From Gammaproteobacteria bacterium 13_2_20CM_66_19 (GTDB lineage: Bacteria > Pseudomonadota > Gammaproteobacteria > Steroidobacterales > Steroidobacteraceae), in contig MNCZ01000086.1 in assembly GCA_001914695.1 (NCBI GenBank), forward strand, positions 1 through 64,000: a stretch of 64,000 bases of DNA, in the 5' to 3' direction. Within the stretch, counting starts at the first letter, position 1; the number at the start of each line of letters is the position of its first letter. The notes under the pieces are model-generated. The model ran no database searches, had not been told where the DNA came from, and saw nothing but the letters and a program-made list of their open reading frames with translations. The position numbers and the translations under genes were made by a program. Below, piece by piece: positions 8,884-29,870 of this stretch.

Positions 8884-10539
8884 GGGCTGCGGCGGGCGGA
8901 CGCCCGCCTGCGTGGCCCGAGCTCGTTCATCGCGGCCGCCGCCATGCGCGATATGGTCTGATCGGGGCAGGAGACCTGCGCCTGCAGCTCGTTGCGTACC
9001 TGCTCGGCGCGGGACTCGTCGGCGACCCGGGACAGGGCCTGGATCGCCTCGATGCGGATCTCACGCTCGGGCCTGGCGATGAGCGGCAGCAGCGTGTCGA
9101 CCAGGCGGCTGTCGCCGAGCTTGCCGAGCGCCCGCACCACGATCGGCATGGCCTTGCCGTTCGCCGGGGTGTGGAGCATCTCCATCAGGCGCGGCAGTGC
9201 GCGCTTGCTGCCGATCTCCGCCAGCGCATCCACCGCCCGCTCGCTCACCCACCAGTCGGCATCGCGCGTGGCCTGGATGAGGGATTCGACCGCGCGCTCG
9301 TCCTTGGTCTGGTTGAGGATCTCGATGGCCGCGCGGCGGATGTCCTCGTCCTTGTCGCGCACCAGCTGCAGCACGGCGTCGATGACCTTCGGGCCGCCGA
9401 TCTTGCCGAGCGCGTCCGCGGCGCGGCTGCGCACCCACCAGTCGCTGTCCTTGAGCGCCTCGAGCAGATACTTGACGGACTTGGCGTTGCCGATCTCGTT
9501 GAGCACCTCGACCGCGGCGCGGCGCGCGTTCTCGTTCTCATCCTTCAGCACCTCGATGAGATAGCGCATCGTCTCCGGGTGGTTGGCCTTGATGACCACG
9601 TCGATGGCGCGGTTGAGGACGTCGATCTCCGGATCGCGCAGCAGCGCGGACACCCGCTCGATGTCGATGAGGCCGTTCATCCGCTGCATCGCCGAGAGAA
9701 CCGCCCCGCGGATCAGCTTGTTGGGGTCCTTGAGCAGGCCTTGCAGTGCGGTCTGGATGTCCGGGCTGTTGAAGCGCGCGAGCGTGTTGATGATGTGCAC
9801 GCGCGCGATCGGGTCCTTGCCCTGCAGACGCCCCACCAGCTCGGGGATCGCGGACTGGTCGGCGATCTCGCCGATGAGCCGAAAGAGTGCCGCCTTCTCG
9901 TTCGGCTCCTGGGTGTAGGCCGCGGCGAGCAGCTCCCGAACTCCGAAGCGCGACTTCTGGGCCGCAATCACCTCGAGCACCGTGGGCTTCGAGATCCCGG
10001 GTATCGACAACGCCTCGAGCAGCAGGTGCGGCGGGTAGTTGCGGCTGGTGGTGAGCGCCCAGGAGATGCCGGAGATGACCCGGGGACTGCCTTCCACCAG
10101 CCCGCGCATGAAGACCGGGAGGGTCTTCTGGCTCACGAGGCCCGCAAGCACTTCCACGAAGGCCATGGTGGCGGCCTTGTCCGCTTCAGGCAGCGCGGCG
10201 AATACGGACTCGATGGCGCCGGGACCGACGTCCTTCAGCCGCGCGATCGCCTTCTGGGTGGCCGCGCTGTTGGGATCATTCGATGACCGGATCTCTGTGA
10301 CGAGCCGGTCGGCACGCAAGTTCGTGAAAAAGCTCATTCAGCCTTTCCGTCGGACACCGCTCCGCACGCATCCAGCGCGCCTGCGCGACCAGACGATGCG
10401 AGGCTGCCGCGGATCTGTCCGGGCCGGCGCTGCGCTGTCGCGGTCGCGGATTATGCCACAGCCCTGACGGAGGCCAGGCCGGCCTACCGCATGCGAGCCA
10501 CCTTCCCAACCTCTACAATCCGCAGCTGGACTTCCAGCG

Positions 10540-27798: not shown

Positions 27799-27884
27799 GG
27801 CCGCCGGTTCGGGGGATGGCGCTGGCAGCCGATTTGTGCGACATAGGCGCGCACCGCACACGCCGCATCGAAACGGGCCGACCC

Positions 27885-29870
27885 ATGAACGACGTCACCC
27901 CAGCACCCGCCCTCACCCAGCGCGAGGTGCTGCTGCACGCGCTCTACGAGGCCTCGGAGCTCGAGCACAACCTCATGTGCACCTACCTGTACGCCGCGGC
28001 TAGCCTGAAGGACGGGGAACGGGAGGGGCTTCGCGCAGAGGAGGCCGCGGCCGTGCGCCGCTGGCGCCAGGTGCTGATGGGCGTGGCGATCGAGGAGATG
28101 GGCCACCTCGCGGCGGTGTGGAACATCACCTCGGCGCTCGGTGGCGCGCCGCGCATCGGGCGGTCGAATTTCCCGCTCGATCCGGGGCTGCTGCCCGCGA
28201 GCGTGGTGGTCAAGCTCGCCCCGTTCAACGCCGACACGCTGCAGCACTTCGTGTTCCTCGAGCGGCCGCGCGGCTCCACCGAGCAAGACGGCGCGGGCTT
28301 CGCGTACGAGCGTAACTACGTTCGCGGCGGCACCGGGGGGGCGCGCCTCACTCCGATGGGCGTCAACTACGACACCGTTGGCGACTTCTATGAGGCCCTC
28401 GGGGAGGGGCTGCGCGCCCTGGTAGCGCACTGCGGCGAGGCGAACGCTTTCGACGGCGATCGGGCGTTGCAGCTCTCGCCGGAGGAAGTGAATCTGCCCG
28501 GTGCCCGGCAGGTCGTGTGCCTGAAGACCGCGCTCGCCGCGTTCGCGGCGATCGTCGAGCAGGGCGAGGGCGCACCGCGCGACTCGATCGGCTCGCACTA
28601 CCAGAAATTCCTGGGAATCCGCGCCGAGTTGCAGGCGCTGACCGAGCGCAACCCGGCGTTCGCGCCCGCGTTCCCCGCCGCTACTAATCCAGTCCTGCGC
28701 CGTCCGCCGCGCCCCGAGGGGCGCGTATGGCTCGAGAACCCGGACGCGGTGGCCACCGTGGATCTCGCCAACGCCTGCTACGGGCTGATGCTGCGCCTGC
28801 TGGCCTACGCCTATGCGGTGCGCGGCCCGAGTGCGGAAAAATCCCTCGCCGTGGATCTGGCGATCGGCCTCATGCAGGCGGTCATGCCGCTCGCCGAGCG
28901 GGCGGCGCGGCTGCCGGCCGGGCCGTCCAACCCGCAGTGCAACGCCGGCGTCTCGTTCATCACGCTGCGGGACTCCGCGGCGCTGCCGCCCGGACCGGCC
29001 GCGCGGCGGGTGTTCGTCGAGCGCATCAAGCAGCTGGCCGAAGGAGCCGCACCGCTCGCCGCGGGCGGCGATGCGCGCGCCGTGGCGGCCGCGCGGCAGC
29101 TGGCCTCGCTCGCCGCAAGCGCCGGCAAGGGCTTCGATCTCACGCCCGCCGCGCCCGCCGCGGCGGCGGCGGCAGCCCCTCAGCCGGCCGCTGCACCGGC
29201 TACGCCGGCGGCTGCACCGGCCTCGACTGTCAGCGGCGGCGTGGAGACGGTGCAGGGAGAGTGGCTAGAGCTGCAGTTCGAAGCGAGGCGCTGCATCCAT
29301 TCGCGCTTCTGCGTCACCGGGGCGCCGCAGGTCTTTCTCGCCAACGTGAAGGGACCCTGGATCCACCCCGACGCCATGCCGGTCGAGCGGCTGGTCGAAG
29401 TGGCGCACGCCTGCCCCTCGGGTGCGATCCGCTATCGGCGCAAGGACGGGGCGCCCGAGGAGCCCGTGCCGCCGGTGAATCTAGCCGGCGTGCGCGAGGC
29501 CGGTCCGTACGCGTTCCGCGGCCAGCTCGAGATCGACGGTGCGCCGGCGGGCTTTCGCGCCACGCTCTGCCGCTGCGGAGCGTCTACAACTAAACCCTTC
29601 TGCGACGGCTCGCATCGCGAGATCGGCTTCACGGCGACCGGTGAGCCGCCGAGCGGCAAGACCGACATGCTGCCCACGCGCGACGGGGTGCTGGCGATCG
29701 ATCCGCAGCCGAACGGGCCGCTGCGAGTGCGCGGCAACCTCGAGATCATGAGCGGCACGGGACGCGTGGTGGCGCGGGTAACGTCGGCGTACCTGTGCCG
29801 CTGCGGCGGCAGCGCCAACAAGCCCTTCTGCGACGGCACGCACTCGAAGATCGGCTTCAAGTCGACCTGA
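27885..29870 (+). CDS. Multi-domain iron protein: VioB/RebD-type ferritin-like domain + Fer4_19 domain + two CDGSH iron-sulfur domains
   Basis: N-terminal EASELEHNLMCTYLYAAASLKD...GVAIEEMGHLAAVWNI; RCIHSRFCVTGAPQVF...PWIHPDAM...CPSGAI; CDGSH motifs LCRCGASTTKPFCDGSH and LCRCGGSANKPFCDGTH. Confidence 0.9.
   Translation: MNDVTPAPALTQREVLLHALYEASELEHNLMCTYLYAAASLKDGEREGLRAEEAAAVRRWRQVLMGVAIEEMGHLAAVWNITSALGGAPRIGRSNFPLDPGLLPASVVVKLAPFNADTLQHFVFLERPRGSTEQDGAGFAYERNYVRGGTGGARLTPMGVNYDTVGDFYEALGEGLRALVAHCGEANAFDGDRALQLSPEEVNLPGARQVVCLKTALAAFAAIVEQGEGAPRDSIGSHYQKFLGIRAELQALTERNPAFAPAFPAATNPVLRRPPRPEGRVWLENPDAVATVDLANACYGLMLRLLAYAYAVRGPSAEKSLAVDLAIGLMQAVMPLAERAARLPAGPSNPQCNAGVSFITLRDSAALPPGPAARRVFVERIKQLAEGAAPLAAGGDARAVAAARQLASLAASAGKGFDLTPAAPAAAAAAAPQPAAAPATPAAAPASTVSGGVETVQGEWLELQFEARRCIHSRFCVTGAPQVFLANVKGPWIHPDAMPVERLVEVAHACPSGAIRYRRKDGAPEEPVPPVNLAGVREAGPYAFRGQLEIDGAPAGFRATLCRCGASTTKPFCDGSHREIGFTATGEPPSGKTDMLPTRDGVLAIDPQPNGPLRVRGNLEIMSGTGRVVARVTSAYLCRCGGSANKPFCDGTHSKIGFKST

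Follow-up and report, generated by a model that had tools for sequence, protein, structure and literature searches.

The window analysed here is a stretch of 64,000 nucleotides, and it contains an open reading frame that encodes 661 aa with no internal stop, in which a ferritin-like domain is joined to Fer4_19 and a pair of CDGSH domains (Table 1). The gene lies 3' of prfC on the same strand, as in the first-pass annotation, which saw no violacein or indolocarbazole genes nearby; its neighbours in the window are housekeeping genes. The open frame continues 5' into the last part of prfC; relatives favour the ATG at 27885, from which the amino terminus MND... is kept. The host genome is a 3.1 Mb metagenome-assembled genome (MAG), 82.6% complete, and the fusion gene is its sole PF12902 gene. 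The host is a soil gammaproteobacterium, which named relatives group with uncultured Steroidobacteraceae.

Table 1. Features of the fusion gene and its upstream region, in window coordinates.
Feature	Position	Strand	Evidence
Fusion ORF, 661 aa, ferritin-like + Fer4_19 + two CDGSH	27885..29870	+	Translation, Pfam, full-length relatives
PF12902 ferritin-like domain, residues 21-246, invariant putative dinuclear ligands	27945..28622	+	Pfam, ligand columns, AlphaFold2, fold match 3hl1
Region between PF12902 domain and linker	28653..29138	+	NCBIfam VioB match at 210-349; helices at 286-416
Ala/Pro-rich linker, residues about 419-447, length variable	29139..29225	+	Translation, relatives, AlphaFold2
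Fer4_19 domain, residues 457-520, C470-x-x-S473-x-x-C476...C510-P	29253..29444	+	Pfam, column counts, motif of PMC6237146
First CDGSH motif, C562-x-C564...C573-D-G-S-H577, predicted [2Fe-2S], 3Cys-1His	29568..29615	+	Pfam, ligand columns
Second CDGSH domain, residues 610-654, C638-x-C640...C649-D-G-T-H653	29712..29846	+	Pfam, ligand columns, PDB 3tbm
Promoter- or operator-like element in prfC-ORF gap, GGGGATGGCGC-N8-GATTTGTGCGACATA (also given as GGATGGCGC-N8-GATTTGTGCGACATA)	27812..27845 (or 27814..27845)	+	Upstream alignment

All of the Pfam matches exceed their curated cut-offs, so the domain content first read from the sequence stands. PF12902 matches with E=8.6e-36 (124.3 bits against a cut-off of 22.3), Fer4_19 (PF06902) with E=3.4e-15 (56.3 bits against 24), and zf-CDGSH (PF09360) in two stretches with E=2.6e-29; the second CDGSH domain has a relative of known structure in 3tbm (E=6.8e-11). 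AlphaFold2 gives pLDDT values mostly of 85–98 across the PF12902 domain, two loops excepted, and high values for the helices that follow it. The linker is predicted to be disordered (pLDDT <50 at residues 426–441) and differs in length between relatives. The fusion is neither a chance reading frame nor an assembly artefact, since full-length relatives at 61–79% identity hold the same domain order across genera and phyla.

We aligned 26 highly divergent PF12902 domains from fused, split and stand-alone proteins. E27, E71, H74, E126 and H238 are kept in all of them and E228 in 25 of 26; Y34 and Y169 are invariant too. The resulting pattern, E / ExxH / E / E..H, is that of ferritin-like diiron proteins. 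A variable loop parts E228 from H238 in the window protein, and in three relatives with the ferritin-like domain alone the last two ligands form an unbroken E-x-x-H, the helix-4 motif of ferritin-like proteins. The only significant fold match is the stand-alone PF12902 protein CC_0557 of Caulobacter (PDB 3hl1; E=5.5e-7, TM-score 0.67 on the target), which has Glu or His at the same six ligand places, is 19% identical to the window protein and is without Fe-S domains; matches to Dps and ferritin are far weaker, with E >0.05 only. From these residues we infer a putative ferritin-type dinuclear metal site of four Glu and two His, most likely diiron. The first-pass annotation had suggested a possible diiron centre and named unconserved metal ligands as the finding that would undo it; the ligands are conserved, and the suggestion is now better supported. 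Our literature search found no activity of PF12902's own, even within VioB.

Among 46 sequences of the iron-sulfur part, C470, C476 and C510 of Fer4_19 are kept throughout, while the usual position of the second Cys is Ala in 33, Ser in 12 and Thr in one, and never Cys. The domain thus departs in all 46 from the canonical [4Fe-4S] mono-cluster ferredoxin motif CXXCXXC(X)nCP and agrees with the [3Fe-4S] motif CXX?XXC(X)nCP, in which the variable position is not Cys; ferredoxins of that type share the three-Cys motif and the Ala, Ser or Thr in place of the second Cys (PMC6237146). Electron-transfer [3Fe-4S] ferredoxins that work with cytochrome P450 monooxygenases carry the motif CXX[S/A]XXC...CP (PMC6237146). 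A [3Fe-4S]-type cluster is therefore a better prediction here than a standard [4Fe-4S] cluster, and the Pfam label 'divergent 4Fe-4S' is not to be read at face value. The three-Cys motif also makes it likely that these proteins, at least, are of the [3Fe-4S] type despite their annotation as 4Fe-4S. Pfam assigns the domain to Fer4_19 rather than to an ordinary ferredoxin family, and a sequence search of the PDB with Fer4_19 alone gave no significant match. All eight CDGSH ligands (three Cys and one His in each motif) are present in 46 of 46 sequences; two 3Cys-1His motifs per chain place the protein with the Class II CDGSH (NEET) proteins, and both domains are predicted to hold [2Fe-2S] clusters. 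The earlier count of three Fe-S centres beside a possible diiron centre was thus fair, with the correction that the Fer4_19 site has three Cys and not four. The same genome encodes a second Fe-S protein (contig G000:C46, locus L032, 6678-7367) in the order CDGSH-Fer4_19-CDGSH, as in the actinomycete fusion described below; no ferritin-like gene adjoins it.

The window protein resembles known proteins in part. With the VioB/RebD/StaD type (iminophenyl-pyruvate dimer synthase, TIGR04492) it has in common the PF12902-type domain and the adjoining helical region, positions 793–931 of the VioB profile matching window residues 210–349. VioB, in contrast, is about 1000 residues long and without Fe-S domains, so that the window protein matches only part of it and adds the Fe-S domains. 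The match scores 59.4 bits against the equivalog cut-off of 1250, so the first description as VioB/RebD-type is right at the level of the domain only. A violacein or indolocarbazole enzyme was rejected both on this score, far below the cut-off, and on gene context. The carboxy-terminal part has its counterpart in stand-alone Class II CDGSH proteins of Roseibium and Haloarcula (54% and 46% identity), which have the same Fer4_19-CDGSH-CDGSH order and to which the window protein adds the ferritin-like domain; the Roseibium gene comes after genes for ETF and an FAD protein. Searches of the literature for the full architecture returned only a 2018 phylogeny of CDGSH proteins, which lists Fer4_19 and Ferritin-like as CDGSH-associated domains and gives no function (PMC5859297). 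The protein was therefore rightly called uncharacterised as to activity, although the domain association was already in print.

The same architecture turns up in Pseudomonadota, Myxococcota and further genomes. When 84,980 species genomes were scanned with two short patterns, 228 relatives of the ferritin-like part were found. Of the best 80 of these, 60 carry the fusion under a strict definition that asks for the ferritin-like motif and both CDGSH motifs in a single ORF, and many of the remainder are masked or lie at contig ends. Hosts include Dyella, Rhodanobacter, Roseateles/Pelomonas, Sphingomonas, Hyphomonadaceae and Myxococcota. Within a set of 60 relatives, several genomes of the same genus have full-length matches at 67–79% identity and other good ones have none, which shows that the gene is patchy; PF12902 was found in 22 of 296 genomes of the order and in 18 of 398 in a spread sample of the phylum. 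A plasmid or viral origin was set aside, the viral contigs having CDGSH-only matches and a single plasmid copy occurring in Asticcacaulis. Two MAG contigs look like misbinned pieces or very recent transfers: one is binned as Actinobacteria and carries a gene 98% identical to that of the window, and the other, binned as Eremiobacteraeota, nests with Rhodanobacter and Dyella and has their SDR neighbour. In another genome of the same genus (contig G034:C77) the gene is split in two frames and the stretch between is missing, either by real decay or by assembly error.

The ferritin-like domain has also met these Fe-S domains in Actinomycetota. Four Streptomyces records have a PF12902 ORF followed by a CDGSH-Fer4_19-CDGSH ORF, the two overlapping by 4 nt in the two records examined, and Nonomuraea gerenzanensis has PF12902, CDGSH and a Fer4_19-like motif in one ORF of 581 aa; the Fer4_19 call rests on the motif in Nonomuraea, and in Streptomyces the score is just below the cut-off. 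In a tree of ferritin-like domains the actinomycete domains and stand-alone proteins form a clade (100/100) apart from the window's family, albeit with some long branches and unsure details. The order CDGSH-Fer4_19-CDGSH of the actinomycetes also differs from the Fer4_19-CDGSH-CDGSH of the window family. The simplest reading of these sequences is that the same partners became associated independently at least twice, and this speaks for a functional connection between the two parts.

Relatives of the ferritin-like domain that are free of Fe-S domains keep different company. A GMC oxidoreductase, LodA or flavin amine oxidase gene lies next to or near the PF12902 gene in eight of 17 sampled loci, whereas among 80 loci of the fused family tblastn gave one oxidase match, weak and about 6.5 kb away (Fisher p about 1e-6, a rough value, as the loci are related and the fused-locus contexts differ in length). 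PF12902 genes adjoin such oxidases in Rhizobium, Agrobacterium and Methylobacterium plasmids too, and in fungi they adjoin lodA/lodB (PMC4417212). Chance adjacency is unlikely, given that the genomes hold at most eight GMC genes and one LodA gene, LodA being single-copy in both genomes where PF12902 adjoins it. Some of the GMC neighbours resemble dehydrogenases that have a small subunit. Directly upstream of stand-alone PF12902 genes at two loci (L160, 4064-6007; L156, 2933-4939) are related proteins (39% identity) of 648–669 aa with no Pfam or NCBIfam match, which may be an undescribed, putative partner oxidase. Caulobacter vibrioides, alone among 14 control genomes in having PF12902, is likewise alone in having LodA.

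Neighbour clustering of 74 loci and Pfam counts over 116 neighbours gave no universal partner gene or dedicated reductase for the fused family, and a constant operon partner was rejected because neighbour clusters are lineage-restricted only. LysR and SDR genes accompany the fusion in Dyella and close kin, prfC in Steroidobacteraceae, and an acyltransferase and a sensor hybrid kinase in Roseateles, the kinase gene being directly downstream. The Sphingomonas neighbours are GST, NmrA-like and alpha/beta hydrolase genes, of which the last two kinds also flank the Nonomuraea fusion; in Asticcacaulis they are YciI and a DUF6596 protein, with a tryptophan halogenase-family gene several genes off.

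We tentatively propose, at somewhat less than even confidence, that the window protein is a self-contained redox enzyme. Its amino-terminal domain would hold a dinuclear, most likely diiron, centre and its carboxy-terminal part a [3Fe-4S]-type cluster and two CDGSH [2Fe-2S] clusters, and the flexible linker would allow the Fe-S part to dock on the ferritin-like part. Electrons, entering through a putative NAD(P)H-dependent reductase or flavoprotein, would pass along the Fe-S chain in cis to the diiron centre, which once reduced would react with H2O2 or O2, so that the net reaction would be the rubrerythrin-like conversion of peroxide (or O2) to water. The transfer in cis is the firmer part: it is probably correct, judging from Actinomycetota, in which these partners have independently been fused or coupled as genes. 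Reduction of peroxide or O2 specifically is a possibility to which we give less than an even chance. It is our first choice because rubrerythrins share the layout (PMC5114695, PMC11926857) and because H2O2 is the common product of most partner oxidases, putative as these are here. In the Fe-S-free relatives the adjoining oxidase may be the redox donor, through its peroxide or its electrons. H2O2 is also released by VioA and RebO, flavin oxidases that come before VioB and RebD. Rubrerythrin and the [FeFe] hydrogenase-rubrerythrin chimera (PMC11926857), in which a diiron centre fused to its own Fe/S supply reduces H2O2, embody the principle that we suggest, although the window protein belongs to another ferritin-like subfamily, has no rubredoxin or hydrogenase domain (and no rubrerythrin or rubredoxin match in Pfam), and has Fe-S clusters of other types. 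Several observations count against the proposal. Sphingomonas mali and S. pruni have the ferritin-like part alone (421–425 aa) in a similar gene cassette, so the Fe-S part is dispensable there; in S. asaccharolytica the equivalent cassette holds the full fusion. The fused family has neither a constant partner gene nor a dedicated reductase, the oxidase association comes from relatives that lack the Fe-S module, some of them beside dehydrogenase-like GMC genes, and the ferritin-like fold also serves non-redox chemistry.

Substrate oxidation is a close second choice. In an oxidative tailoring or catabolic enzyme the Fe-S-reduced diiron centre would activate O2 for the oxidation or coupling of an organic substrate; the protein would then resemble a small soluble diiron monooxygenase or oxidase whose ferredoxin is part of the same chain. 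Taken by itself we find this reading, of which the tailoring variant was already offered in the first-pass annotation, rather doubtful, even though the [3Fe-4S]-type motif is typical of monooxygenase partners, the ferritin-like domain type is common to VioB, and the SDR, NmrA-like, hydrolase and GST neighbours of some lineages, together with the Asticcacaulis halogenase-family gene, would suit it. A conserved biosynthetic cluster is lacking, contexts varying by lineage and being housekeeping in the window, and the VioB equivalog score is far from its cut-off; peroxide or O2 reduction fits the comparative data at least as well.

A role in iron or Fe-S handling, with the ferritin-like part oxidising or storing iron and the CDGSH domains carrying or transferring [2Fe-2S] clusters or releasing iron under oxidative stress, would draw on the weak likeness to Dps and ferritin and on the discussion of CDGSH proteins as electron and cluster transfer proteins (PMC5859297). 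It seems improbable, because the closest fold by far is 3hl1 rather than a storage cage, because isc, suf and iron-uptake genes are absent from the recurrent neighbour families, and because PF12902 relatives adjoin oxidases rather than iron genes. The ferritin-like fold also serves non-redox chemistry: tardigrade and Deinococcus ferritin-like proteins are dinuclear phosphatases (PMC11616004). That the window protein is such a hydrolase, for instance a metabolite phosphatase with a regulatory Fe-S part, is very unlikely. The phosphatases share the fold but belong to PF13668 and not PF12902, their site (Glu51, Glu90, His93, Glu132, Asp135, Asp162) differs from the four-Glu, two-His set, and it is hard to see what three fused Fe-S domains would do in such an enzyme. 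About as unlikely is a redox or iron sensor signalling through partner proteins, an early suggestion that has not fared well: several labile-type Fe-S sites on one chain and the Roseateles kinase would be in keeping with it, but Pfam finds no output or DNA-binding domain, the kinase is limited to one genus group, and no regulator is a constant neighbour.

A broader and more speculative reading, which we consider rather unlikely as a whole, is that PF12902 would be a general dinuclear-iron partner domain of peroxide- or O2-handling oxidases (GMC, LodA, amine oxidases and the VioA/VioB type), from which the fused family would have dropped its partner oxidase and become self-wired by one [3Fe-4S] and two [2Fe-2S] clusters. 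It would then be a novel class of diiron peroxidase, oxidase or oxygenase on one chain, with at least two origins. Each single domain was known before, as was the listing of Ferritin-like with CDGSH (PMC5859297). What is new here is the set of metal ligands, the motif of three Cys in Fer4_19, the finding that the same partners were joined independently, the company that Fe-S-free relatives keep with oxidases, and the wiring in cis that we infer. The re-joining and the oxidase neighbours lead to specific, testable predictions. A widespread chain that unites PF12902 with an apparent electron supply also offers a practical handle on PF12902 activity, since one could purify a single polypeptide and assay it in the presence of a reductant.

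As to prfC itself, it was rejected as a partner: its association is limited to Steroidobacteraceae, the fusion occurs elsewhere without it, and a conserved element separates the genes. That promoter- or operator-like element is kept in most of 11 Steroidobacteraceae-type loci and occurs once in the window genome. At one locus it is partly kept, yet prfC is not directly upstream. One close relative (L053, about 9900-9980) has a GGCGCAC tandem repeat in the stretch that separates this element from the start codon.
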